IMG/VR virus record: IMGVR_UViG_3300041955_000117
Location: 1 to 25,898 of that record
Source of the DNA: a virus
Length of the DNA: 25,898 nucleotides
Direction: 5' to 3' (one strand)
Each line of letters starts with the position of its first letter. The first letter of the stretch is position 1. The notes beneath the pieces were generated by a model. It made no database searches, had not been told where the DNA came from, and saw only the letters and a list, made by a program, of their open reading frames with translations. Of the stretch, positions 1 to 24,561 are shown in pieces. Position numbers and translations under genes: made by a program.

Positions 1-785
1 ACTATCTGCGGATAGTTGGAGCAGGAAAGCGTTACCGGCACAATCGCGTGCAAGGCCCCACCAATATCCTGGTACCTGTCTGCCGTATCGTCTGTGGCCG
101 AAAGCGCCGTGATGGTACCCGCCGCGATGGTCAATCCAGTGATGTCCTGCGGCGCGCTCGGGGTGTAATACTCGTTGTACGTCCGAATCCGAACCGTCCA
201 GCCGGTCTGCGCAGAGCCGGTCTGCGGGATGGTGATATCCCACCCGCTGCCGGATAACACGCCACCGACCGCGCTGGAGTACGGGTACACGTCGCGGAAG
301 ATCTGCGTCTCGATTCCGCCGGGCGAAACCGCGAAGACCTCAAGATAGCGGTCATGGGAATAATCGGGGCTTCCGGTCGGCAGTGTGATCGCGAAGCCGA
401 AGGTGGGGTATGTGGCGTTCAGTCCATGGTTGTCGTACCCGGTGATGCTCGCGGTAGCCGTTGCGATTGGCGGCGGCGGTACGCCAGTAGTCGCCACGTT
501 CGTGCTGCTGATTTCCCATTTCCCGGCCACGCCTACGAACGTGGCATTCGTCACGGATAGCGGAGTAGTCGGAACCGCCGGCGCCCCGACGAACATCGTG
601 TCCCACGTCACCGCGTGCCCGGTGGCATCCATAGTGATGCCGACGAACAGCACGTCCCCGTCCACCTCGACAATCGAGATCAGCGTGGGCGCCGTGATCG
701 TGTACGTCCGCACGAGAGTAGGAGCACCAGCCCCTGCGCCCGGCATCCCCATGCCACCCGTCGTGATGGCTTTCCTAATTACCAT
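1..785 (-). CDS. Fibre-like or tail-tip structural protein, 3' end beyond window
   Basis: An open frame runs from ATG at 785 to the left edge with no stop, giving about 261 residues of an incomplete protein. It begins with a glycine/alanine-rich segment (around residues 10-22). It then continues as Ser/Thr/Gly-rich sequence with alternating hydrophobic residues, a proline run (VPPPPIA near residue 108) and stretches such as GWTVRIRTYNEYYTPSAP, typical of immunoglobulin- or fibronectin-like beta domains in phage tail fibres. It follows the J-like tip protein by 93 nt, the usual place for fibre or baseplate accessory genes. The ribosome site is weak. No enzymatic motif is seen. A structural role is inferred from position and composition; the exact family is not recognised. 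Confidence 0.65.
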   Translation of the reverse strand, partial: MVIRKAITTGGMGMPGAGAGAPTLVRTYTITAPTLISIVEVDGDVLFVGITMDATGHAVTWDTMFVGAPAVPTTPLSVTNATFVGVAGKWEISSTNVATTGVPPPPIATATASITGYDNHGLNATYPTFGFAITLPTGSPDYSHDRYLEVFAVSPGGIETQIFRDVYPYSSAVGGVLSGSGWDITIPQTGSAQTGWTVRIRTYNEYYTPSAPQDITGLTIAAGTITALSATDDTADRYQDIGGALHAIVPVTLSCSNYPQI

Positions 786-878
786 GACACCAATCTGGTT
801 TCATTCCTGGAACGCATAAAGGCTTCACTGACAGTCAAAGGGTCTTGGGCTATCCATAAACTCCGTACCCAGAAAGCA

Positions 879-3800
879 TTAAGCTCCAGGCACTGTCCAC
901 GCTTTGTTCTCTCCTGGATTCAGCGCCCAGGAGGTTGTCACTCCATCGTCAAATGTGTCCTGCCATCCGGTACCCGAGGCAAGTTGAATTGTCAGCACTG
1001 CGGTGGAAGAGGCATCATTCCGCACGATGAAGGATTGATTCGGCAGCGTTGAAAACGGCAGCGCGCTATAAGTAGCCGGGGCAGAAATGAAGGCATCGAT
1101 TACGCGGTCTGTGGGCAGTCCCGCAGCGTCGCCTGTGATCGTGCGCGTGCCCTGGGCGCCGAAAAAGTAGATCTCCGCCATTGGCGCATTCCATCCCCAG
1201 ACACTATGCCCGGCCGCATCCTCCGTCCGAACCGCGATCAGCCACGCCTGGCCAGCCAAGTTCGGTACCGTCACTTGCGCCGGCATCGAAGACGCCTGCG
1301 TGTCCACCCAACCTGGGGCCACAATCACCACGTGATCCCCCGTGTTGGGGGTGATCTGCCAAGCTCCCGCCATATTGAACGTGTCGAACCGTCCCGAACC
1401 CGGAACAGATTCCGTCACGCTCTCGACTACCAGCAGATCGCCTTTATCGATGCCATCCACCATGATGGCCACATGGCCCGCTTCCACCGCCGTGGCGCCG
1501 TTCGGATAGTATTCGTTGGCAATATTCGGATCGCAGAACGAACTTGGCGTGAAGGTGGCCTTGTGCCGCATCAGCAGCAGATCGCCCACCGCCAGCGTGG
1601 TAGTCACGTCCGCCGGCAGATTGCCATCCGCCCCCGGCCCCATCGTCACCACGAATACGCCCCCGCTACTAGCCCCGTTGGCCGCAATCGCCAAATTCAG
1701 CACCGGGATTTCGAGCGTCTGATCAGCCTTCGCCAACAGGGAAAGCACGTAGCCATCCCATTGCCCGGAAGTCATTCCCGAACCGCCGACAGGATCGGCG
1801 AATCGGATGTAGCCCGCGTTCGTACCGGAAATCCCCGGCGAAAGCGCCTGCACCTGCTGAGCCCATGGGCCCCCATGGATTTCCTGCATCAACCAGATTA
1901 CAAAGTGGTCGAACAAAGGGTCCGGACCGCCTGCGCTCGCCTGGTTGAAGCTCGTAATCGTGGCCGTGGTCTGAATATTGGTCAGCGTCTGTTGCCAGTG
2001 CATTGCGTAGGACCCTGGAGTGATTTCAGCCCCAGACGCATTCAGCCGCACTTGCGCCATGAACAGATCGCCGCCGTCATCTCCCGAACCCCATTGCGCA
2101 GTCACCGCAATAGATCCGGTTCCAGAGCCTCCGATCACCACTACGGCCAGGCTCAGATAATCCGTGCTCTCATAGCTCGATCCGCAGCTGTCGCGCGCCG
2201 CGAGCCCAACCACATACGTACCGGCCGGAATCGTCCCCCCTGTGTTCGACGACACGCATGCGAGTTGCGGACGCGCGATGCCTGTGTCCAGCACACTCAC
2301 CGGCGCTGTACCCTTGAGCACCACCGCGACCGTCGGCGCCCCGTTCGTGTCTAAGCCGTACACCGGCTGAATTCCGAACCGCGCTGCACCACCCACCGCA
2401 TCACCCGGGGCCGGAGCCGCATATCCTGGGGACCACGGCAGAGGCGCGCTCTCCGCAAACGTCCCCGTCCCCCAACTGCCCTGCACGTAACCCTGCGCGC
2501 TCAGTTCCTCTTCCGTGCTCCAGGCGTAGGTGCTGGAATCCGTCTCCTGGACGTCAATCTCCGTGCCGAGGGTAACCGTATCGCCGTGAGCATCGATTCG
2601 GAAGCGCGTAGACTGGACCTCGAGCAGCTTGTTGGCGAAGCCCAGAAATGGCACCGTGGCCTCAAAGACGTCCAGAGGCGCGAACTGGTAGCCCGCCATG
2701 TTCAACGGAAATGTTCCGGTCCCACCATTGCGGCGCCGCAATAGTTCGATCTTGGCGATACGTTGGGCCGTGGGCGCCGAGATCGTGAACGGTAAATGCA
2801 ACTCAAGCCAGCGCCGTTCCCCTGCGTCGGCCGCCAGCAGGACATCGCCGCCGTACTGCAAGGGCCCGCTGTAGCCGTGCATCGAGTCCTGCGCGTAGGC
2901 CGGGAAGTCCGTGGACTGCCATTTATTCGCCGGGCTGATGTATGTACCCTTGCACCCGTTGAACAGGTCGCGGATGGAGCTTGTGGGACGCCAGTGTGGC
3001 GCGCCGGCAGCGATGGCTTGGAGGTTCGCGCCGGCGCCGCCGGTCAGCATGGTGACGCTGAACGTCGCAAGGGTGCCGTATCCACCAGAGACGGCCAGAC
3101 CGTTCGCAACGGAGTATCCCGAGCCGGCCGCGCTCACATGGTAGTCGATGATCCCGCCCGTTGAGTTGGTGGCATCCACCGTGATCTGGCCACCGGACGC
3201 GCCCGATTGGACAACCGTGAGCACGTCGCCCGCCTGGTATCCGCTCCCGATGGCCGCCAGGGCCGCCGCCGCAATCCCGGCCGGCAAGGTCGGCCCGACC
3301 CAGTAGCCAGGTTGGATCACGAACGGAGCTTCTGGGCTGATCCTGCCTGCGCATGACGTGAGCAGGTTCTGGAGAGTCTCGCCGCGCTTCGTGGTTACCT
3401 CGAACTGCCCATTACACGCATATCTCGGCTCTGATCCACCGATGGCCAGGGAAACGGCCTGATCGCAGACGTTGGCCGCCGTGGTCAGGGCATCGGCGGG
3501 GATATCGGTTCCGTACTGCGCTTTGTATCCCCAGGTCTGATCGGCCAGGAAATCGGCGATGCAAAGCGCAGCGTTCTCGCTGTAGCCGCATGACCCGGCT
3601 GCGCCCGTCAAGAGCGTGATGTTCACCGTGGCGCTGGACCCATGGCCCCCGGACAGGGCCAATCCGCTCGCAATAGAATACCCGCTGCCGGGAGCAGTGA
3701 CCACAAAGGCCGTAATCGCCCCGGACCCGTCTACCGCGGTTACCGTGATCTGGCCGCCCGAGGCCCCCGATTGCGTGACCGTGAGGACGTCGCCCGCCTG

Positions 3801-4892
3801 GTACATGCCTCCGGCGTGATAACCACTTCCGGCAGCGGCCAGCCCAGCCGCGCCAATTCCAGACAGTGCCCCCAAGCGAGGGTCGTATATGTCGTTCTTC
3901 CCCCGCATGTAGAAGCTGATCATCGGGAGGCCGGAACCGAAGTACTTGGTGTCCAGGGTGATGCGGAGGAAGACCGCAGTTTTGCCCTGCAGAGAGCAGT
4001 AGTTCGTCCACGGGTTCGCGCCCGACGAGCCGCCCGCTTGCTGGGGACTCGCCGGCGTGCACAATTTCCCGGTCCCCTGCCACGGAACGCCCGCCGTCGC
4101 GCCGATGAAGGTCTCACCAAGCAACTGCTTGCCGCTCAGCACCTCCATGTAGACGTTGCGGCCGTAGTCCGCCCATTGTGTCGTCGCGCCGCCCTCATTG
4201 CTCACGGAGCAAACAACGCCCCCGGAGAGATAGGTGAACGTCAGGACTCCGCTCACCCGGCTGATGATTTCTGCGACCTGGAAAACCCCAGTCAGAGCAT
4301 ACGTATCCAGAATGCCGCCGCCGTTGGCGTTGGTGATGCCGATCTGATCTCCCCCTGTCAGATACGGGATGTCCTGCGAGAGCACGACGGTGACCACGTT
4401 GGCGGCGCGGCTGATGGAGCTGATGGGGACGTTGGTTTGCTGGAGAGGTGAGAAACTCGTTCCACTGCCTGCCTCCGGCGCGGGGATGGTGTACCCCGCC
4501 AGGGCGCTGTTTGGAATTGCTGAGGTATCGATCTGCACGCGCTGCTGGTCGAACAGCAACTCATCAACGGACTCACACGGGTGCGCGGCCAGGACAATCA
4601 CCATGTCGAGCACCTGTCTGTTGTTGCCCCACTGGTGCATGTAGACCAGCGTTCCGCCCGTGCGTTGGCGGCCATAACAACAACGCCACGGAGCGATGGG
4701 GTTTCGCATCGTGGTGCCGAAGCCCTTGACCGGATCTCCCTGAATGAGAGAGCCGACGCCGGATATCATCGTGCCGACGCCCATGCCGATCAGAGCGTTA
4801 CCGAACCCGGCGCCGCCCGGAACGTATATGTCTATGGCGATTCCGGCAGAGATTTCCGCGTAACCCGCGATGAGTTTGAGTATTCCAGCCAT
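879..4892 (-). CDS. Tail tip / host-specificity protein (lambda J-like, 1337 aa)
   Basis: This is the largest gene of the window and the probable central tail-tip protein that contacts the host. The N-terminal about 130 residues resemble the start of lambda J/TipJ proteins: a glycine-rich hydrophobic segment (about residues 20-50), then a NPIAPWR..YG..R.GG motif near residues 63-80, and a VLAAHP..SVDELLFD stretch near 100-115. The middle (about 650-830) again reads like the J beta-rich core, while the C-terminal third is Ser/Thr/Gly-rich with Ig/FN3-like character. Two copies of an about 80-residue glycine-rich module are inserted near residues 348-430 and 538-619 (listed separately). The ATG shares bases with the upstream gene's stop (TAATG), so translation is probably coupled. 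Family assignment rests on motif memory and on position after distal-tail and hub genes. Confidence 0.85.
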   Translation of the reverse strand: MAGILKLIAGYAEISAGIAIDIYVPGGAGFGNALIGMGVGTMISGVGSLIQGDPVKGFGTTMRNPIAPWRCCYGRQRTGGTLVYMHQWGNNRQVLDMVIVLAAHPCESVDELLFDQQRVQIDTSAIPNSALAGYTIPAPEAGSGTSFSPLQQTNVPISSISRAANVVTVVLSQDIPYLTGGDQIGITNANGGGILDTYALTGVFQVAEIISRVSGVLTFTYLSGGVVCSVSNEGGATTQWADYGRNVYMEVLSGKQLLGETFIGATAGVPWQGTGKLCTPASPQQAGGSSGANPWTNYCSLQGKTAVFLRITLDTKYFGSGLPMISFYMRGKNDIYDPRLGALSGIGAAGLAAAGSGYHAGGMYQAGDVLTVTQSGASGGQITVTAVDGSGAITAFVVTAPGSGYSIASGLALSGGHGSSATVNITLLTGAAGSCGYSENAALCIADFLADQTWGYKAQYGTDIPADALTTAANVCDQAVSLAIGGSEPRYACNGQFEVTTKRGETLQNLLTSCAGRISPEAPFVIQPGYWVGPTLPAGIAAAALAAIGSGYQAGDVLTVVQSGASGGQITVDATNSTGGIIDYHVSAAGSGYSVANGLAVSGGYGTLATFSVTMLTGGAGANLQAIAAGAPHWRPTSSIRDLFNGCKGTYISPANKWQSTDFPAYAQDSMHGYSGPLQYGGDVLLAADAGERRWLELHLPFTISAPTAQRIAKIELLRRRNGGTGTFPLNMAGYQFAPLDVFEATVPFLGFANKLLEVQSTRFRIDAHGDTVTLGTEIDVQETDSSTYAWSTEEELSAQGYVQGSWGTGTFAESAPLPWSPGYAAPAPGDAVGGAARFGIQPVYGLDTNGAPTVAVVLKGTAPVSVLDTGIARPQLACVSSNTGGTIPAGTYVVGLAARDSCGSSYESTDYLSLAVVVIGGSGTGSIAVTAQWGSGDDGGDLFMAQVRLNASGAEITPGSYAMHWQQTLTNIQTTATITSFNQASAGGPDPLFDHFVIWLMQEIHGGPWAQQVQALSPGISGTNAGYIRFADPVGGSGMTSGQWDGYVLSLLAKADQTLEIPVLNLAIAANGASSGGVFVVTMGPGADGNLPADVTTTLAVGDLLLMRHKATFTPSSFCDPNIANEYYPNGATAVEAGHVAIMVDGIDKGDLLVVESVTESVPGSGRFDTFNMAGAWQITPNTGDHVVIVAPGWVDTQASSMPAQVTVPNLAGQAWLIAVRTEDAAGHSVWGWNAPMAEIYFFGAQGTRTITGDAAGLPTDRVIDAFISAPATYSALPFSTLPNQSFIVRNDASSTAVLTIQLASGTGWQDTFDDGVTTSWALNPGENKAWTVPGA
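3037..3280 (-). repeat. Tip-protein module copy 2 (about 80 codons)
   Basis: The second copy of the module, with IGSGYQAGDVLTV, QSGASGGQITV, AGSGYSVANGL and MLTG in the same order. GxGY..GD..TV elements of this kind recur in phage tail and fibre proteins as small beta modules (established knowledge). The high DNA identity between copies in the central part suggests a fairly recent duplication or recombinational spread. The boundaries are approximate. Confidence 0.85.
3606..3850 (-). repeat. Tip-protein module copy 1 (about 80 codons)
   Basis: The first of two in-frame copies of a glycine-rich beta module inside the tip protein. It contains AGSGYHAGG..YQAGDVLTV, then QSGASGGQITV, a second PGSGYS element, and ends with LLTG. 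It carries five extra residues (HAGGM/Y region) compared with copy 2. The 60 bases at 3745-3804 match 3181-3240 at about 50 positions, and the two blocks are offset by 564 nt, exactly 188 codons. Confidence 0.85.
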
Positions 4893-8786: not shown

Positions 8787-9245
8787 TCAGGCTGCCTTTG
8801 CTGCTGGTATTCCGGGAATGCCCTCGGCGAAGCTCTCCTTGAGTGAATTGACGGCGGCCTCAAGTGCTGCATCCAATGACTGAGCAGCCGACAGCCGCAT
8901 AAATGGATTCTCTGCGACCGGCCCGCTTATGGCTTTGTGGCTATGACCATGAGCGATCTGACGGTGGCCGTACTCGACGAACCTGGCGATGTAACCGAGC
9001 TTTCCGAAGCCGACCTGGGCCACTCCTCCGCGACCGTCGGCATCCAAAGCCACGTCAGTCATCAGGTGCTTCAGCAGGTCTCCCGTGAGGACAGGAGTAT
9101 TTATCCGCAACGCCACAACAACGGGCTGGCAGGCTGCTGTAAGCGCCCGTGCATATGCCGCCTTTGCGATGTGGGCGGGGGCCATCGTGAGCATCGCGCA
9201 GGTCTCCTCTATACCGGAGATTTGGATTGAGAACTCGTCAGGCAT
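8787..9245 (-). CDS. HK97 gp10-like tail/connector protein (152 aa)
   Basis: The protein starts with IQISGIEET.AMLTMAPAHI and continues through AYARALTAACQPVVVALRINTPVLTGDLLKH and YIARFVEYGH, with ENPFMRLSAA near the end. This is the layout of the HK97 gp10 family: a DEL/EET helix, a basic middle, a P..TG.L motif, then VEYG...PFxRPA. HK97 gp10-like proteins act in head-tail joining or tail completion. Here it lies after the chaperones and before the tape measure, not in the usual slot upstream of the tail terminator. It overlaps the second chaperone by eight bases. Confidence in the family is moderate to high from the motif order. Confidence 0.78.
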   Translation of the reverse strand: MPDEFSIQISGIEETCAMLTMAPAHIAKAAYARALTAACQPVVVALRINTPVLTGDLLKHLMTDVALDADGRGGVAQVGFGKLGYIARFVEYGHRQIAHGHSHKAISGPVAENPFMRLSAAQSLDAALEAAVNSLKESFAEGIPGIPAAKAA

Positions 9246-10406: not shown

Positions 10407-10412
10407 CTCCTT
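10407..10412 (-). promoter_or_regulatory. Consensus ribosome binding site of tail tube gene
   Basis: The minus strand reads AAGGAG followed by a five-base spacer (AAGAC) and ATG. The site overlaps the TAA of the tail terminator gene. Most neighbouring genes have shorter SD matches. Confidence 0.8.
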
Positions 10413-10827
10413 AGATTTGGTCGTAATTCACGAGATATTCCAGCGTCCGCACGTAACTACGATTTGCATCGCTGAATCCGTCAATAAAGGGCGCCATGCG
10501 GAAGATTCCCTGTACCACCGTGTGATCGGCGTCCGGCAGCACTCCCGAATAGCCGCCGCGCAAAACCCCGTCGATGGCCCGGGCGAGCGTGATAGCGTCG
10601 GCCATCGCATACCCGTGGCAATCGATCTGCAGCTCCAAGCCGGTAAACGGGTCCTGGCCCTGGAGAGTGTACGTTGGCTCGGCAACGATGCAGCGGTACG
10701 TCCAAGCCATCGTCGAGGCCGAGGAGATCTGATCCTTGGGTAACTGAACGGCGAAGCCTCCCGGCACACCAGGGAGCGCCGATGTGATACCCTGCTGGAC
10801 CAGCGCTACAAGTCCAGCCTCGATCAT
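10411..10827 (-). CDS. Tail terminator / tail completion protein (DUF3168-like, 138 aa)
   Basis: The protein opens with an N-terminal helix (MIEAGLVALVQQGITSALPG). A beta-rich core follows, with MAWTYRCIVAEPTYTLQGQD and LELQIDCHGYAMADAITLARAIDGVL, and the C-terminal FSDANRSYVRTLEYLVNYDQ. This pattern (short-chain tail protein with D..C.G....A..LA..I...L and a final edge strand) matches the DUF3168/gp17-type tail terminators that cap the tube. Position directly before the tail tube gene agrees. Its ATG overlaps the stop of the second glycosyltransferase gene (ATGA), so the cassette upstream is translationally coupled to this structural gene. Confidence 0.78.
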   Translation of the reverse strand: MIEAGLVALVQQGITSALPGVPGGFAVQLPKDQISSASTMAWTYRCIVAEPTYTLQGQDPFTGLELQIDCHGYAMADAITLARAIDGVLRGGYSGVLPDADHTVVQGIFRMAPFIDGFSDANRSYVRTLEYLVNYDQI

Positions 10828-12203
10828 CTAAGCGCCTCCTCGGCGCGATGAAAACGCCGCATGTACGGATTCCCCTCCAGTTCTTCCCAGGCTAGGCCCC
10901 CGATCACGCGCCCGCTCACGTTGTCGGCGTGGTTCGTGGCGTAGAGCAGATCGCGGCCGTCAACCGCTATCGCGGCGCCCGCGTGTTCTGCGGCGGACCA
11001 GAAACGATCATCTTCCCCGCAGCCCACCGCCTCGAATCGATGTCCCTGCCACCATTCGCGGCGGTAGCATAGAGACGTTCCGGTCACCAAGCCATCGGTC
11101 TTGTGAAGCCTCCACCAGCCCGACGACGTCCGGGCCTTGCCGTTCTCCACCACGCGCACGTCGCGCGTTTCGCGGACCAGGATCGTGTGGTATGCGGTTA
11201 CCTCCTTGCCGGTCTGCTGGAGGCGTCGAACCTGATCGGCAATACGGTCTGGGGCGCTGTAATCGTCGTCATCGAAGTGGCAGATTATCTCGCCGCGACT
11301 TTGCTCACAGCACAGATTTCGCTTATCGCCGAGCGTCAACCCGCGCCGAGCGAAAAAATGGAAGAGCACTTGCGGGTCGCCAATTGGGATCAGCCCTACG
11401 GACTCGTCCTCGGAAATGATCCACATTTCCTTGTTGGGCCAGCTCTGGCACTGAAAGCTATCGATGGCGCGCGGCAGCCATTCCCGTCGCCGCTCGGTAG
11501 TGGGGCAGATGCAGGAAACGAGCGGGACATTGAAGAATTCCCGGTAGACTCGGGCATCCTCTCCGATCCAGGAACGCAGTAGCTCGAGGTCTGGGTCTGG
11601 CGTCATCAATTCGCCGCCATGCCGGTGGGGCCATCCCTGCCCGGGTCGACCCGGAAGGCCCTTTATACCCGCCGTCTCCTGGCCACCGAACAATTGCTTT
11701 TCGGCGGCCGTTCCCCACAGCGCCACATCAATCAACGCGCCGGATTCGCAGACGCTCTTCAGCAACGGCAGGTATTTGCCGCGAATCCCGGTCTGAAACA
11801 GCGAGGCATGCTTGTCGTTTCCGCAGTCCATCCACATGCGAGACCGGACATTGTAATATCGGCCGGGATATTCGCCCACAAGCGGGGCAGCCTCCAGCCG
11901 CCACGCCATCGTCTCAAGGTAGGTGGGTGCGTACCAATCGTCATCTTCGATGATGAGCACCTTGTCGAACTGAACTAAAGGCAATGCGGCAAGGATGTTC
12001 CGGTGCTGCGAATTCTCCCCGAGGCGCCAGAAAGGTTGCGGACGTATAGAGACCTGCCCCATTGTCAAAGGCGTGGATCTTTCGCAGTCGTCCACCACGA
12101 TCCACTGAACCTCTCCGCGATAGGTCTGGCGCGCTATCCACCGTTCGCACAGGGAGAACGCCTCGGGCCTGCCCCCGGTCGGCGTGATGAGCGTCAGGCC
12201 CAT
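10824..12203 (-). CDS. Dual-domain glycosyltransferase (two GT-A/GT2-like domains, 459 aa)
   Basis: Two glycosyltransferase-like domains lie in tandem. Domain 1 (about residues 1-200) starts LTLITPTGGRPEAF, has VQWIVVDDC, and carries an acidic nucleotide-sugar/metal motif IIEDDDW at about 85-90. Domain 2 (about 226-459) starts VPLVSCICPTTERRREWLPRAIDSF, has a QSWPNKEMWIISED strand, the QSRGEIICHFDDDDYSAPDR motif near 301-320, and a late GCGEDDRFW acidic element. GT2 enzymes transfer sugars from nucleotide sugars; the acceptor cannot be read from sequence. It has no signal peptide or membrane segment, so it should act in the cytoplasm. It overlaps the preceding glycosyltransferase by 10 bases and the next structural gene by 4. 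A role in decorating virion proteins is inferred. Confidence 0.85.
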   Translation of the reverse strand: MGLTLITPTGGRPEAFSLCERWIARQTYRGEVQWIVVDDCERSTPLTMGQVSIRPQPFWRLGENSQHRNILAALPLVQFDKVLIIEDDDWYAPTYLETMAWRLEAAPLVGEYPGRYYNVRSRMWMDCGNDKHASLFQTGIRGKYLPLLKSVCESGALIDVALWGTAAEKQLFGGQETAGIKGLPGRPGQGWPHRHGGELMTPDPDLELLRSWIGEDARVYREFFNVPLVSCICPTTERRREWLPRAIDSFQCQSWPNKEMWIISEDESVGLIPIGDPQVLFHFFARRGLTLGDKRNLCCEQSRGEIICHFDDDDYSAPDRIADQVRRLQQTGKEVTAYHTILVRETRDVRVVENGKARTSSGWWRLHKTDGLVTGTSLCYRREWWQGHRFEAVGCGEDDRFWSAAEHAGAAIAVDGRDLLYATNHADNVSGRVIGGLAWEELEGNPYMRRFHRAEEALR

Positions 12204-13615
12204 TTCTGTTCCAGCACCCGATTCATATCGGCCATTGACGCGCGCCAGTCGGAATCGGACATGATCCGGCGGTACGACGTCGAGCCTGTGCCACTTTCAT
12301 GCCCGTGGATCACCGTGGCCTTTGGCGTGACCGCGAGCGTAAACCCCGCCTGCTGGGCCCTCCGGCAGAAATCGAAATCATCGGAACCGTAGCCCGTAAA
12401 TCTCTCGTCCATTTCGCCAACCGCGCTCAATACCGCGCGCTTGATATAGACACAGACGAATGCAAGCTCATGCTGGGCCAGCGTGACCTCGCGGAGCCTG
12501 CATCCGGAGACCTGCAATGGGTTCGCTACGCTTCCGACAACCTGTGGAGAGACGATTCCTATATTTGTTTTGGAGTACGCCGCTCGGCGCAACTCCTCGA
12601 TAGTGCCGGGTTGATGGAAAATCACATCGTCATTGGTAAACAGTACGTCCGAATCCGGATCAGTGGCTCCGATGGCGATGTTCCAGTTGTGCGCGAAAAC
12701 GAACGGACGCTTACCACGCACCACCGTCCAGGGAGAAGGCGACACCCAGTCGCCATCCGATACCATCAGGCGCGGGAATGTGGCGGCGTAGTGGTTGACG
12801 GATTCGTGCAGCCGCAAAAACACGTCCTTGAAACGCGAGAGGGTGACGATGGTCACGCGCGGCAGGTTATCCTCCCAGCACTGGAGGGTGTTCGGATCGT
12901 GGAGGAAATTCGATCCCGCCGACAGTCCCTCGTATTGGACGTGCCAGCCCCAGGACCGCTCCTCTGCGTTCCAACGATTCAGCCGCTCGGCCATCTTGCG
13001 GGCGCCGTGCCGCTGCCCGCGAATCGGGTAGTGTTTTAGGACCCACTTTTGGGGGTGGACTTTCATCCCCGGAAAGCCAAAGGCGTGGCCTCCGCCGGCC
13101 GCCCGCGTTCCCAGACCGGTCAACCTGCCAGCGTTCTTCCATGCCTTGATGTGGTTCAGCCCGCAGTCGACGTGCGCCCTGGTGTAATAGGAAAAGTGTC
13201 TTTCCGGGTCGCCGATATAATCGTCGTCAATTGGCCTGAACAGATAGAGATTGTGATTGACCGCGTTGTAGCCTTCGGCTTCTACCCGCTGAAGGCCGCG
13301 GACTATCGTTTCGCCTGGCCGCGGACTGCGCCGAATCTCATCGGCGTCATGGAAGATGCACCAATCAGCCTTGGACGCCGCGGCCACCTCGTCGATGCGG
13401 CCTAGCATGGAGAGGCAGTTATAGCGATCCTCGGGGCCGCTCGAGGGAAACCGCTCCCGCCCGCTGATCGGCAGCCAGGAAAGCATTTCCCAACTGCCGT
13501 CCGTGCTCCAATTGTCGATGACGTACACCTCGACGCCCTGGTCAACGAGGTGCTGGACGGTCCAGGGCAAAATGTCCGCCTCGTTCCGGACGGGCATGAT
13601 GGCCAGCGCTCTCAA
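12194..13615 (-). CDS. Dual-domain glycosyltransferase (two GT2-like domains, 473 aa)
   Basis: The N-terminal domain (about residues 1-240) starts with LAIMPVRNEADILPW, then VEVYVIDNWSTDGSW and a DxD-type FHDADE at about 89-93, as in GT2 family enzymes. The C-terminal domain (about 253-473) has VTIVTLSRFKDVFLR, an acidic FTNDDVIF motif at about 326-333 and MDERFTGYGSDDFDFCRRA near 402-420, the usual late GT2 acceptor-side element. The start is TTG, overlapping the radical SAM stop, and a GAGGAGG ribosome site seven bases upstream supports it strongly. No membrane segment is present. It forms one transcriptional unit with the radical SAM gene and the second glycosyltransferase. Donor and acceptor are unknown. 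Confidence 0.87.
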   Translation of the reverse strand: MRALAIMPVRNEADILPWTVQHLVDQGVEVYVIDNWSTDGSWEMLSWLPISGRERFPSSGPEDRYNCLSMLGRIDEVAAASKADWCIFHDADEIRRSPRPGETIVRGLQRVEAEGYNAVNHNLYLFRPIDDDYIGDPERHFSYYTRAHVDCGLNHIKAWKNAGRLTGLGTRAAGGGHAFGFPGMKVHPQKWVLKHYPIRGQRHGARKMAERLNRWNAEERSWGWHVQYEGLSAGSNFLHDPNTLQCWEDNLPRVTIVTLSRFKDVFLRLHESVNHYAATFPRLMVSDGDWVSPSPWTVVRGKRPFVFAHNWNIAIGATDPDSDVLFTNDDVIFHQPGTIEELRRAAYSKTNIGIVSPQVVGSVANPLQVSGCRLREVTLAQHELAFVCVYIKRAVLSAVGEMDERFTGYGSDDFDFCRRAQQAGFTLAVTPKATVIHGHESGTGSTSYRRIMSDSDWRASMADMNRVLEQKWA

Positions 13616-14853
13616 GCCGCGACCTCCTCGCCGGATGTGCGGCGCGATAAGCCCAACTCTCGGCGCACCGATGCTTCGATGATCTCGGGCAACTCCGCCA
13701 GCTCGCCTGCGCCAAGGGCGGCCGTTCGTGTGGTGTGTGGCAACTGAAGGCCCGCCGCGCCGCGGAAGGGAACGCCGCGCCGCTCGTAATCGAGTTCGAA
13801 CTCTACGTCGAATCGTTCCGGGTGCTCGTGGATCGCGCTGCCGGGATATGGAACCAGCATCGTAACGGTCAGATCGTCCACTTCGTTTTCGATTAACCAG
13901 CGCCGCGTCTGCTCTACGGTCCCGCGCGTCTCGCCCGGCAGACCGATGATGGTGAACGCCTTGAATTTGATCCCCATCTCGCGGCAGAACCGACGCGCGC
14001 GTGTGTTGACCTCTGGAGTTGTCCCCTTGGAGACCTTACGCAGGATCTCCGCCGATCCACTCTCTACGCCGAAACACAGCCACGAGCATCCAGCCACGGC
14101 AAAGGCCTGAACCTGCTCGCGCGTCAACAGGTCCGCCCGCGCGTTGGCCTTGAACCGGACGCCGAGCGGAGCCATTCGCCGGCAGAGGTTGAGCAAACGG
14201 CCGTTCAATAAATTCATCTCATCGTCATGGAAGACCAGGGAGCCGAAACCCATATCCTTCAACTGGCCGATCTCCTCGATGACGTTGTCGACCAGCCGCG
14301 CGCGCACCTTGCGCGTGCTGGCCCACCGCGAGCAGAAAGCGCAGGCAAATGGGCAGCCCCGTTGCGAGACAAGCGAAGTTGCGGCTTCTCCGTCCACCGC
14401 GCACGAATAATCCGCGATCGGCACCAGATGACGCGCCGGAATCGGGTAGCGGTCGACGTCCACGGGCCCGCGATCCTCGCCATGCCCAGCAGCCAAAGCG
14501 ATGATCGTTTCCTCTCCGTCGCCCGCGACGCCAACGTCCGCTCCCAGGCGCTCCGTATCCCTACGCACCGAGAGGTGCGGCCCTCCAACCGCCACCCGCA
14601 CGCCCGGATAGAGAGACCGGCATCGTGAGACCAGTGATCGCACCGCCGCAAATTGGGCCGTGACACAGGTCACTCCAATCAACGACGGGTTATATCCGTC
14701 GAGCGTCTCGCCAGGTAAGTTCAGATCGGCCACCTGCACGCGGAATCCATGCGCCTCGAGCGCAGCTCCCAAATAGAGCAGACCCAGGGGAGGCACAAAG
14801 GCCGGCTCCGCGAGGAACTCGGACCGCGGATTGATTAGAAGAACTTCCTTCAC
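13612..14853 (-). CDS. B12-binding-type radical SAM protein (413 aa)
   Basis: The N-terminal about 130 residues look like a cobalamin-binding Rossmann domain: VLLINPRSEF, FVPPLGLLYLGAALEAHGF, PSLIGVTCVTAQF, VAVGGPHLSV and GDGEET. The radical SAM core follows with C167-x3-C171-x2-C174 (RGCPFACAFCS), which would hold the 4Fe-4S cluster, then FGVESGSAEILRKVSKGTT (about 261-279) and IIGLPGET (about 302-309), both typical of this class. Such enzymes often perform radical methylations or rearrangements; the reaction here is unknown. The C-terminal about 70 residues are not recognised. The start is GTG with GAAGG seven bases upstream. The gene sits 10 bases after the head-tail adaptor and is coupled to the glycosyltransferases, so it probably works on the same target. 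Confidence 0.9.
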   Translation of the reverse strand: MKEVLLINPRSEFLAEPAFVPPLGLLYLGAALEAHGFRVQVADLNLPGETLDGYNPSLIGVTCVTAQFAAVRSLVSRCRSLYPGVRVAVGGPHLSVRRDTERLGADVGVAGDGEETIIALAAGHGEDRGPVDVDRYPIPARHLVPIADYSCAVDGEAATSLVSQRGCPFACAFCSRWASTRKVRARLVDNVIEEIGQLKDMGFGSLVFHDDEMNLLNGRLLNLCRRMAPLGVRFKANARADLLTREQVQAFAVAGCSWLCFGVESGSAEILRKVSKGTTPEVNTRARRFCREMGIKFKAFTIIGLPGETRGTVEQTRRWLIENEVDDLTVTMLVPYPGSAIHEHPERFDVEFELDYERRGVPFRGAAGLQLPHTTRTAALGAGELAELPEIIEASVRRELGLSRRTSGEEVAA

Positions 14854-14863
14854 CTTGTCGCCT

Positions 14864-15226
14864 TCAGTTATTCGGCCCGATCCCGAGGCACATCAACACG
14901 GCGTAGATGTTCATCCGCCTCACGTTCTCCACAGCCTGAATCACGAACTGCGCGCCATCCGAGGTCTGAATTCGCTTGTTCGCTGTGAACTCTGGCCGAA
15001 ACCACATGGTGACCTTGACGTAAACCTGCGAGATATCCTGGCCGGCTTTGATGATGTCGGTTCCGCGGAGATACTCAAAATCAGCCCACGCCGTCACGGG
15101 GATATCATCCGCCTTGTAGTCCACTTTCGCACCCGATGCATCCGACCCCGCGACCTGCTCCAGGAGAGTGATCTGATGCCGGAACCGTCCAGGATCAACG
15201 GTGGGCCAATCGGAGCCGAGCGACAT
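14864..15226 (-). CDS. Head-tail adaptor / head closure protein (120 aa)
   Basis: The protein has the pattern of the siphophage head-closure family: an N-terminal PGRFRHQITLLEQVAGSDAS element (about residues 12-31), a conserved WADFEYLRGTDIIKAGQ stretch, then VTMWFRPEFTANKRIQT and a final beta strand (FVIQAVENVRRMNIYAVLMC). These proteins seal the portal after packaging and provide the docking surface for the tail. The ATG directly abuts the stop of the gp6-like gene. The length is normal for the family. The next structural gene expected, the tail terminator, is separated from it by the three-gene modification cassette. Confidence 0.85.
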   Translation of the reverse strand: MSLGSDWPTVDPGRFRHQITLLEQVAGSDASGAKVDYKADDIPVTAWADFEYLRGTDIIKAGQDISQVYVKVTMWFRPEFTANKRIQTSDGAQFVIQAVENVRRMNIYAVLMCLGIGPNN

Positions 15227-16129
15227 TCAAAGCCTCAAATCCATGACCGGGCCCAAAATCGCTTTCACGCAATCGCGCGCCTTGGCATCGAAACTGGGAA
15301 CGCGGTTCACGTACCAGGCGTTCACCAAGACCTTGATGGCGAGCTTGAGCAACTCCCAATGCCCCGGCGTACCATTGGTGACCAGGAGCGCGGTCGCGTC
15401 CCCGCCGGTCAATGCTGGATCGCGCATCGTCGCCGCGCCGGCATCGTCGACCGAGGCTATTACCGTGTTCAGGCACCCTCCAAGTACGCCAGCCCCTGGG
15501 ATCGAGATCGGCTGGCCGACGTTCGATTGAGTGAAGGAACCGCCCGCGAGGGCGTCGGCGCCGCTTGTTGTGGTCACTGCCATCGGCGTGGCGTAGCCGA
15601 CCTCGTAGTTCACTTGCACGGCATTGACGACCACGCGAGCCACGGGCCACATTTGGCCGAACGGCGGCGTGAGGCGCGCCGGCTGCGATTGCAGATCCAA
15701 GACGAAGTTCCATTCTGCCGGGGCGTCTGGATTCCCGTTCATCATGTCCGCAACGGCGCCGTTGGCGTCCTGGTAAACGAAGGCGACCAGGCTCTGCACG
15801 GGCGGATACGGAAGCAGGATCGCGTAACGAATGCCCACCAGCACGGCGTTAGATCCGGAGACGAAGGGAGAGGAGACCTTCTGGCCGGCCAGCTTCATGT
15901 CGATGTAACCGGGGAAGAAATCCATCATCAGCGCCCAAGTCTGCTGAACGAAGCGGCGCTGTGTGAGCGTTTCGCACCACGCCCGCGCCGCTACTTCGAG
16001 CGTCGTCAGGACGTCGTCCTGGGAGGCATCGCCCTGGTCCATGCGGAGCATGTCCTTCAGCTCTTGCATCGAGACCGGTTCAACGAGCGGCGGGGCTGTA
16101 CAGATTAGAGCCGTAAAATTACCCTCCAA
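15227..16129 (-). CDS. gp6-like head-tail connector with insertion (300 aa)
   Basis: The N-terminus (LICTAPPLVEPVSMQELKDM, then a DDVLTTLEVAARAWCETLTQR helix at about 39-58) is that of HK97 gp6-type connectors, which form the ring below the portal. The C-terminal helix (LLKLAIKVLVNAWYVNR, about 260-276) also fits. At 300 residues it is longer than the common gp6 form, and about residues 186-252 form an extra Gly/Ser/Thr-rich beta insert with VGQPISIPGAGVLGG. The only suitable start is TTG at 16129, inside the 3' end of the upstream HNH gene, with AAGGGG very close to it; the next in-frame ATG (residue 21) would remove a conserved part. Confidence 0.8.
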   Translation of the reverse strand: MEGNFTALICTAPPLVEPVSMQELKDMLRMDQGDASQDDVLTTLEVAARAWCETLTQRRFVQQTWALMMDFFPGYIDMKLAGQKVSSPFVSGSNAVLVGIRYAILLPYPPVQSLVAFVYQDANGAVADMMNGNPDAPAEWNFVLDLQSQPARLTPPFGQMWPVARVVVNAVQVNYEVGYATPMAVTTTSGADALAGGSFTQSNVGQPISIPGAGVLGGCLNTVIASVDDAGAATMRDPALTGGDATALLVTNGTPGHWELLKLAIKVLVNAWYVNRVPSFDAKARDCVKAILGPVMDLRL

Positions 16130-16619
16130 TCCCCTTATTCCACGGAACGTGACTGGCCTTGAAACGGGTAGGCGATCCGGATTCGAGGAATTTACGTTTG
16201 GCGACGCTGTCCATGGGACCGCGCAAGGCGCGAGCGGCGGTAAGCCGTTTCCGGTGTTCTTCGGATAGCGATCTCCCTTTGCTCCACATGTTTTTGCCCT
16301 TGTGAGAACAGCTCATTTTCTTCCGGGTTTCCGCTGAATGGTGCAGTCCAATTCTGCTCTTGCCGATGGCTGTCAGCGTTTCCTGCGAATACACTCCAGT
16401 CTTCCCTTTATTCCACGGGACAATTCCCTTTAGTGATTGACCGGAGAGCATCCTCCATGCAATAAGATCACCGATTTTCCCAAATTCTCGGTATAGGTCG
16501 CGATGCAATTCCGCGTGAAGCCCCACCGAAATTGGAGGGGTTACATTGTCGGGGGAATCGTCCTCATATCCCAGGTGGTGCCTCGGGCAGATATGGTGGA
16601 CGTGAAGTGGATATCGCAT
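16119..16619 (-). CDS. HNH homing-type endonuclease with NUMOD3 motifs
   Basis: The N-terminus holds an HNH-type core (VHHICPRHHLGYEDDSPDNV, then GLHAELHRDLY). The rest contains repeated NUMOD3-like DNA-binding segments: VPWNKGKTGVYSQETLTAIGKS, HSAETRKKMSCSHKGKN and SLSEEHRKRLTAARALRG, with a final PWNKG. This combination is known from phage homing endonucleases, which cut and invade related genomes. The ATG at 16619 is chosen; a TTG 18 bases further upstream lies in the U-tract of the terminator. The gene appears more AT-rich than its neighbours (not computed), and it separates the capsid gene from the connector gene. Its end overlaps the start of the connector. About 166 residues. Confidence 0.85.
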   Translation of the reverse strand: MRYPLHVHHICPRHHLGYEDDSPDNVTPPISVGLHAELHRDLYREFGKIGDLIAWRMLSGQSLKGIVPWNKGKTGVYSQETLTAIGKSRIGLHHSAETRKKMSCSHKGKNMWSKGRSLSEEHRKRLTAARALRGPMDSVAKRKFLESGSPTRFKASHVPWNKGIGG

Positions 16620-16635
16620 AAGGCGTTGATCTTTC

Positions 16636-16676
16636 AAAAAAGGCGTGCGGCCCCTGGAGGATATCGGGCCGCACGC
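16636..16676 (-). terminator. Intrinsic terminator after the capsid gene
   Basis: A perfect 11-base inverted repeat (GCGTGCGGCCC at 16643-16653 and its complement at 16666-16676) has a 12-base loop. On the minus strand the stem is followed by C and six T residues (16641-16636). It starts 27 bases downstream of the capsid stop. This is the clearest Rho-independent terminator in the window. Confidence 0.93.
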
Positions 16677-23678: not shown

Positions 23679-24491
23679 TCAACTATTTTGTAACTTGCGG
23701 AAATTTGCGTGATGCTGCGCAACGGTCACCACGGCCTTGGCAACCCGAGGAATCGAGGCACCCTGGGTAAGGGGACTCGTATTCAACAGGAGCATCAACT
23801 GGCCCTTGAACTCGTTCGACCGCTTCGAGTTGCAGGCATGATGCGCTGGTCGAACGTTCCTGATATCATGCCATCCGCCCAGGCTCAGCGGAACCACATG
23901 ATCCAAGCTGAACTGCTGTCCCTGGGTCGCGCGTTGAAGCGGGATTTCCTCACCACACAGCCAGCACTTCAAGCCATATTTGGCAATCACGTCTTGCCGC
24001 CGGACTACTGCGAACGGTACGCCAGCTTTCCGCGCCCTAGAGCGTGCCGTCTTCGCATCTCGCCTCGACGCCTTTTTGTTTTGCGCCGCGCATTCGCCAC
24101 ACAGCCGGTTTGAGGCGCCGCGTTCCCTTTTCACATTGAATGGATGATGGCATTTACGGCATTGCTTGGCCAACAAATCGGTTGGCCGCTTGCGTAGATA
24201 GGACGCCAAGGCAGCACGGCGGCTGTGGTCTCCCTCGCACGCCGATCCACAGAACCGCCTTCTCCTCCCCTTGTGGTTTCCCTGGATGAACCGTCCCCCG
24301 CAGGTCTCACAATCACTGAAATACCAATGAGTCCACGCTCCCTCACGCGCGGACTCATGAAACGCCGCGCTTGCGATTGCTTTCTCCCGCCGTTGCAACG
24401 CGAACCCGCATTCGCGCGAGCAGCAACGGTTCGAGTCATTTGTTCGCACGCGCCGTTTGAATTCATTTCCGCAGATCTCGCAATTCGGCAT
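23679..24491 (-). CDS. HNH endonuclease with three zinc-finger-like units (270 aa)
   Basis: Three Cys4 units come first: Cys4/7/24/28, Cys61/64/81/85 and Cys111/114/131/134. A basic helix follows (RRDAKTARSRARKAG), then a C-terminal HNH nuclease core: CWLC (176-179), FSLDHVVPLSLGG with Asp197-His198, and NVRPAHHACN with Asn212, His217 and Cys220. The fingers probably recognise DNA and the HNH cuts it. HNH proteins next to terminase genes can assist packaging-related cleavage in other phages (known for HK97 gp74), but a mobile-endonuclease role is equally possible. The ATG at 24491 has GAGG eight bases upstream; an in-frame ATG at 24536 has no visible SD. Confidence 0.88.
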   Translation of the reverse strand: MPNCEICGNEFKRRVRTNDSNRCCSRECGFALQRREKAIASAAFHESAREGAWTHWYFSDCETCGGRFIQGNHKGRRRRFCGSACEGDHSRRAALASYLRKRPTDLLAKQCRKCHHPFNVKRERGASNRLCGECAAQNKKASRRDAKTARSRARKAGVPFAVVRRQDVIAKYGLKCWLCGEEIPLQRATQGQQFSLDHVVPLSLGGWHDIRNVRPAHHACNSKRSNEFKGQLMLLLNTSPLTQGASIPRVAKAVVTVAQHHANFRKLQNS

Positions 24492-24561
24492 CACCACTGC
24501 CTCATCCCATCCCAGAGTGGATGCGCCGGCCGCCATGGAACAGGCGGCGGCGAGGCGGCGA

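Follow-up and report, generated by a model that had tools for sequence, protein, structure and literature searches.

A radical SAM and glycosyltransferase cassette among the connector genes of a siphophage, a candidate virion-glycosylation locus

The cassette and its place in the late module

We analysed IMG/VR record IMGVR_UViG_3300041955_000117, whose whole stretch of 25,898 bases is called the window here, and a three-gene cassette within it. The late module of the window is of siphophage type and lies on the minus strand, where genes for terminase, portal, protease, an HK97-type major capsid protein (MCP), a NUMOD3 homing endonuclease, the adaptor Ad1 and the head closure protein Hc1 are followed by the cassette and then by the tail terminator, tail tube, chaperone region, Neck1, tape measure, distal tail and tail fibre genes. 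The cassette occupies positions 10824-14853 on the same strand and encodes a B12-binding radical S-adenosylmethionine (SAM) enzyme (rSAM, 13612-14853, 413 amino acids, GTG start) and two proteins each predicted to carry two tandem GT-A-type glycosyltransferase (GT) domains, GTa (12194-13615, 473 amino acids, TTG start) and GTb (10824-12203, 459 amino acids, ATG start). The rSAM assignment is based on PF02310 and PF04055, that of GTa on Pfam and PHROG GT matches and a fold search, and that of GTb on Pfam, a structure model and a fold search. A first-pass annotation, made from the letters of this DNA alone, had described these three genes in these terms. Open reading frames (ORFs), Pfam matches and models confirm the observation; its interpretation, taken up below, is partly supported.

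Upstream, the cassette is bordered by Hc1 (14864-15226, minus strand; PF05521, phrog_25), which lies together with Ad1, and downstream by a tail terminator-like gene (10411-10827, minus strand) and the major tail protein gene (phrog_158). Without a family match of its own, the gene at 10411-10827 is called a tail terminator because its homologue in L017 matches phrog_347 (L-numbers, L002 to L129, label the related loci and contigs that we retrieved, most of them fragments). Reading frames overlap by 4 bases between rSAM and GTa (TTGA), by 10 bases between GTa and GTb and by 4 bases between GTb and the terminator gene (ATGA). The idea that such overlaps couple the cassette to the structural genes holds for these three junctions and not for that of Hc1 and rSAM, which is a 10-base gap. 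Coupling to the late operon, as also proposed earlier, agrees with the overlaps and with the lack of a promoter-like site inside the cassette stretch, where terminator-like sites were not above chance. Scanning the window for tRNAs and Rfam families returned nothing.

The junction between adaptor and terminator genes had been described as normally tight, which the cassette-free relatives contradict. In L017 (terminator 36% identical), the slot between Hc1 and the terminator holds a Neck1/tail-completion gene (phrog_5), and L016 (terminator 45% identical) has a gap of matching size there. The phrog_5 gene of the window (8787-9245, minus strand) lies outside this usual place, flanked by the tail chaperone region and the tape measure gene. 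The cassette thus occupies the position that Neck1 has in L017. Two consecutive Neck1-like copies were seen in L011 (2344-3424).

At the same place, L002, L004, L005, L006 and L012 carry this block, either complete or truncated where the contig ends, so that a search in other phages, suggested by the first-pass annotation, did not return the three genes as unlinked single insertions. L007 holds the head of the block and L003 a variant at the same place, in the order radical SAM, class I methyltransferase, a further GT (GT0), GTa and a GTb lacking its N-terminal domain. Ratios of nonsynonymous to synonymous substitution rates (dN/dS) between the window and its relatives were 0.08-0.12 for rSAM, 0.10-0.18 for GTa and 0.16-0.22 for GTb: the cassette genes are under purifying selection. 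Recurrence of the block together with dN/dS values of 0.08-0.22 indicates that the cassette is neither a chance arrangement nor an assembly error. A higher value for the L003 tail tube (0.6) came from a single comparison and was not used. The homing endonuclease gene between MCP and Ad1 (16119-16637) recurs at 75% identity in L005 and L006; in L003 and L004 it was not found.

The glycosyltransferase domains and the radical SAM enzyme

Taken together, profiles, models and fold searches point to four GT domains, as had been proposed from the sequence. GTaN (residues 1-250 of GTa; 12866-13615, minus strand, like the other three domains) matches PF13704 and PF00535 above cut-off. GTaC (residues 251-473; 12194-12865) has only weak, sub-threshold GT2 profile matches; its predicted fold, from a moderate-confidence model, matches GT-A enzymes, polypeptide GalNAc-transferases among them. 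GTbN (residues 1-222 of GTb; 11538-12203) belongs to a family with the motif TLITPTGG and an invariant EDDD (alignment A3), found by scan in about 240 viral contigs. It has no Pfam match itself in the window, but its homologue in L028 has one. Most residues of its model have pLDDT >90, and the model matches GT-A enzymes, with bacterial surface-glycan GTs among the neighbours. GTbC (residues 223-459; 10824-11537) matches PF00535 with 54 bits (cut-off 23.3) and is the only half of GTb present in L003 (9758-10468). The GTb model is confident for the N-terminal half only; that of GTa is moderate in parts and poor elsewhere. Acidic DxD-like motifs are present in each of the four domains. GTa and GTb therefore appear, as judged by these predictions, to comprise four GT-A-type domains, two in tandem per protein.

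The tandem arrangement has an unfused counterpart in L026, where GTaN, GTaC and GTbN are three separate neighbouring genes in the order found in the fused window proteins (GTaN 50% identical to L026 8522-9301, GTaC 34% identical to L026 9294-10007). The simplest reading of the comparison is that GTa and GTb are fusions of an ordered GT set. The window GTs resemble known GT2/GT-A (SpsA-like) enzymes in their predicted GT-A fold, in DxD-type motifs and in PF00535/PF13704, and differ from them in carrying two tandem domains and in that GTbN forms its own phage-rich family. None of rSAM, GTa and GTb has a transmembrane-like segment (highest 19-residue hydropathy 1.19-1.48).

A tblastn search of phage isolates returned no match for GTb and, for GTa, only phage GX15bay (30% identity over a third of the GTa length), whose GT cluster lies before the terminase. 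This phage (Caudovirales GX15bay, MK557849; L010), a complete genome from mangrove soil, carries a run of GT and methyltransferase genes directly upstream of its terminase gene.

The rSAM protein combines a B12-binding domain (residues 20-120; 14494-14796, minus strand; PF02310, 67.3 bits against a cut-off of 32.1, E 1.4e-18) with a radical SAM core (residues 162-320; 13894-14370, minus strand; PF04055, 80.8 bits against 29.5, E 1.6e-22). The CxxxCxxC motif reads CPFACAFC at residue 167. Relatives are found in L002-L008. Matches to curated subfamilies (HpnJ, PhpK, AprD4, BchE and others) were all far below their cut-offs, the best being HpnJ (116.2 bits against 577.6), with AprD4 at 102.9 against 500. 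The best solved relative is AprD4, although the match is generic, and the profile neighbours include methyl-coenzyme M reductase glutamine C-methyltransferase and methylases of ribosomally synthesised and post-translationally modified peptides (RiPPs). AprD4 is a sugar deoxygenation enzyme; like GenK and GenD1, it works on the sugars of aminoglycosides (PMC5461906). With the class of AprD4, HpnJ, PhpK and GenK/GenD1 rSAM shares the B12-binding domain, the core and CxxxCxxC; in contrast to them, it falls below every equivalog cut-off and is embedded in a phage late operon. Among phage isolates, the protein matched only Streptomyces phage SF3 (28%), where the gene does not adjoin GTs. A genome-contig scan, whose patterns reach close relatives only, gave no bacterial origin for the gene.

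The GTbN family and its partners in other viral contigs

We used GTbN to follow the cassette beyond its close relatives. Scanning IMG/VR confirmed the domain in 241 contigs, and we retained the best 80. The corresponding scan of species genomes yielded 16 loci, including Stenotrophomonas sp. 278, Lysobacter antibioticus HS124, Xanthomonas sp. NCPPB 1128 and Planctomycetota metagenome-assembled genomes (MAGs). GTb and two other GTbN proteins had no match in 50,697 phage records, and no PHROG was found for the two members tested.

The 102 GTbN domains fetched fall into 40 clusters at 60% identity. The placement count, which covers the GTbN family alone, gave genes of the MCP-to-tail-tube interval on both sides of GTbN in 19 of the 40, at several distinct slots. 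These are MCP and Ad1 (L065, L048, L101, L110), MCP and Hc1 (L093), Ad1 and Hc1 (L028), Hc1 and Neck1 (L044, L094, L046), Hc1 and terminator (the window clade), Neck1 and tail tube (L025, L060, L069, L088) and, in phages with another capsid family, MCP and adaptor (L033, L115, L118, L122, L129). In a further cluster (L087), MCP flanks GTbN on a single side. Among 50 such records searched with curated Pfam models, 18 gave a capsid gene and 19 a head-completion gene. If the interval made up 10-20% of the genome, 20 of 40 clusters would fall within it by chance with a probability of 2e-10 to 2e-5, a rough guide since the interval share is assumed and independence among the clusters is incomplete. 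In a tree of GTbN, the sequences from most slots stay within separate clades; the position of the window branch has no support, and its nearest rows are L008, L025, L026 and L060.

The partners of GTbN in these cassettes are varied: a GT42-like protein (phrog_4603, with a faint MptE-like signal in one), methyltransferases, PhyH, WbsX, a GT92-type GT, a sulfotransferase and an epimerase. The siphophage cassettes that combine GT42-like and GTbN genes (the L065, L115, L028 and L046 groups) have the GTbN family and the capsid-to-tail-tube interval in common with the window. The window clade differs from them by its fused GTs and, in the window and the L004 and L005 pieces read, by the absence of a GT42-like gene.

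A B12-binding radical SAM gene lies near GTbN in the window clade, in L008, in L115, L118 and L120, and in the Bacteroidales MAG locus L057, so that the association of radical SAM and GT genes, which the first-pass annotation had singled out, is a recurring one. Two kinds of enzyme occur, since those of L115 and L057 are 55% identical to each other and only 26-30% identical to the window/L008 type (about 27% between the window and L115). In L008, which comes from a 51-kb contig of a different phage, a radical SAM gene 60% identical to window rSAM lies in a cassette composed of GT42-like, epimerase, radical SAM and methyltransferase genes, a GT0, GTaC and GTbN fusion, and a second GTbN. A few genes before this cassette, L008 carries a phage-family reverse transcriptase (488-4074, phrog_1423), the N-terminal part of which resembles the C-terminus of a neighbouring 618-residue ORF, as in a diversity-generating retroelement.

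No radical SAM gene was seen in L119 and L121, and in three further loci only an in-frame remnant of it is left (its first 41 and last 37 residues; L125 8899-9111, L126 6745-6957, L127 8256-8468) while the rest of the cassette is kept. L003, L119, L121 and L125-L127 show that radical SAM, methyltransferase and GT modules come and go, which suggests that tailoring by the radical SAM enzyme is optional. The two-step modification pathway proposed earlier is too narrow as a fixed pathway.

Proposed function and alternatives

On the gene content and placement described above, we consider that the cassette probably serves virion glycosylation in a siphophage, being co-transcribed and co-translated with the late structural genes. 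It would be expressed late, together with the virion proteins. The soluble GT-A enzymes, four domains in two fusions, would build a short glycan in the cytoplasm from host nucleotide sugars, transferring sugars stepwise to a head, connector or tail protein. The radical SAM enzyme may tailor the sugar or the glycan by C-methylation, or by an AprD4-like deoxygenation or epimerisation, and the benefit could lie in an altered particle surface towards whatever recognises the particle. The virion acceptor, the length of the glycan, the chemistry of the radical step and the advantage to the phage are inferences from the sequence and its comparisons. A virion protein, already favoured by the first-pass annotation, would be the most likely target because at least 19 of 40 clusters have GTbN within the capsid-to-tail-tube interval.

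Several results weigh against this proposal. GTbN lies near other head genes in five of the 40 clusters (L054, L116, L057, L106, L111), and no recognised structural gene is present in the fetched locus in 15. Structural labels beyond Pfam and PHROG come from our own iterated profiles, run on all ORFs. In L008, the genes downstream of the cassette matched no connector or tail profile (hhalign, Phage_tube_2, tblastn). The capsid-to-tail-tube interval also takes other inserts, such as the homing endonuclease of the window and, in the GTbN-carrying L101, L096, L100 and L109, several large ORFs of unassigned function (up to 837 residues) between Hc1 and Neck1; the placement signal may thus partly reflect tolerance of cargo. 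A search for serine/threonine-rich acceptors was uninformative and allowed no acceptor to be named: the tail tube is the most serine/threonine-rich protein in the window, which we did not use because tail tubes are rich in these residues in general. Nor did we use the serine/threonine-rich tail of the ORF following MCP in the L065 and L101 groups, since this tail extends into the GT42-like ORF and its reading frame may be wrong. In L075 (5542-6323) and L104 (1341-2182) the ORF that follows MCP runs, in a different frame, into the beginning of the GT42-like ORF; its serine/threonine-rich end may not be in frame, or a frameshift may lie there.

Tolerance of cargo leads to the alternative that the cassette is unrelated cargo in a permissive interval, its placement saying nothing of the target. 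The inserts just mentioned and the gain and loss of modules in L003 and L125-L127 fit this view. However, the GTbN family and sugar-tailoring partners recur in the interval at different slots and in different backgrounds, the order GTaN, GTaC, GTbN is common to L026 and the window, and the genes are under purifying selection; we regard this alternative as unlikely. Only slightly less doubtful is modification of a host-surface glycan, in which lipopolysaccharide, capsule or teichoic acid would be altered, leading to seroconversion or superinfection exclusion. GTs of temperate phages often do this, PHROGs files related GTs as morons, one L115 GT weakly matches the GtrB-like family and bacterial surface-glycan GTs are among the fold neighbours. 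Against this, the three window proteins lack membrane segments, the cassette has no GtrA-, flippase- or polymerase-like gene, and its tight coupling to late structural genes is not the placement of a lysogeny gene, while placement among virion genes recurs.

GTs could also glycosylate modified bases of the phage DNA, given that virus-encoded DNA-hypermodifying GTs are known (Pyle et al. 2024, as cited in PMC12619734). Against this, no gene of the thymidylate-synthase family (PF00303) was found in ten fragmentary related records, including L004, L005 and L008, and the cassette is coupled to structural rather than replication genes; we give DNA hypermodification a very low probability, although the records are incomplete. 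The remaining alternative concerns the radical SAM enzyme, which might work independently of the GTs on a protein residue, for example by C-methylating a structural protein. The glutamine C-methyltransferase and RiPP methylases among its profile neighbours would agree with such a role, which retains a small but appreciable probability, the highest among these alternatives. However, every curated model match is far below cut-off, AprD4, the best relative of solved structure, is an aminosugar enzyme, and radical SAM genes are linked to GT and sugar genes in several lineages.

Virion glycosylation itself is already known from mycobacteriophages, the only phages for which the literature found describes it. 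It was reported for Che8 and Rita (Freeman et al. 2023, as cited in PMC12619734, PMC11256854 and PMC10955285), and glycans on the C-termini of mycobacteriophage capsid and tail tube proteins are cited in PMC12619734 and PMC11256854. The window has phage-encoded GTs in common with the Che8/Rita system, with capsid or tail tube as proposed acceptor. In contrast, searching the phage collection gave no match for GTb, and the GT genes of Maravista (F1, related to Che8 and Rita) lie near the 3′ end of the genome, whereas those of the window lie among connector genes. The open-licence literature searched contained no description of a radical SAM partner or of GT cassettes among connector genes.

Beyond the window, we see an even chance that these loci form a widespread, unrecognised class of virion-glycosylation loci in environmental siphophages, in which one GT-A family is interleaved with connector genes and interchangeable tailoring enzymes, B12-binding radical SAM enzymes included, diversify the glycan. 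If the placement means what it seems to, many uncultured siphophages would decorate their own particles, and the radical SAM enzymes, methyl- and sulfotransferases and oxygenases would point to glycan diversification on virions. This idea is directly testable, since prophage-like loci carrying related cassettes are present in the genomes of the cultured strains Stenotrophomonas sp. 278 (L044) and Lysobacter antibioticus HS124 (L046).

Elsewhere in the window, an HNH/endonuclease VII-like gene (23679-24536) overlaps the gene for the terminase small subunit; L004 matches only its last 16 residues.

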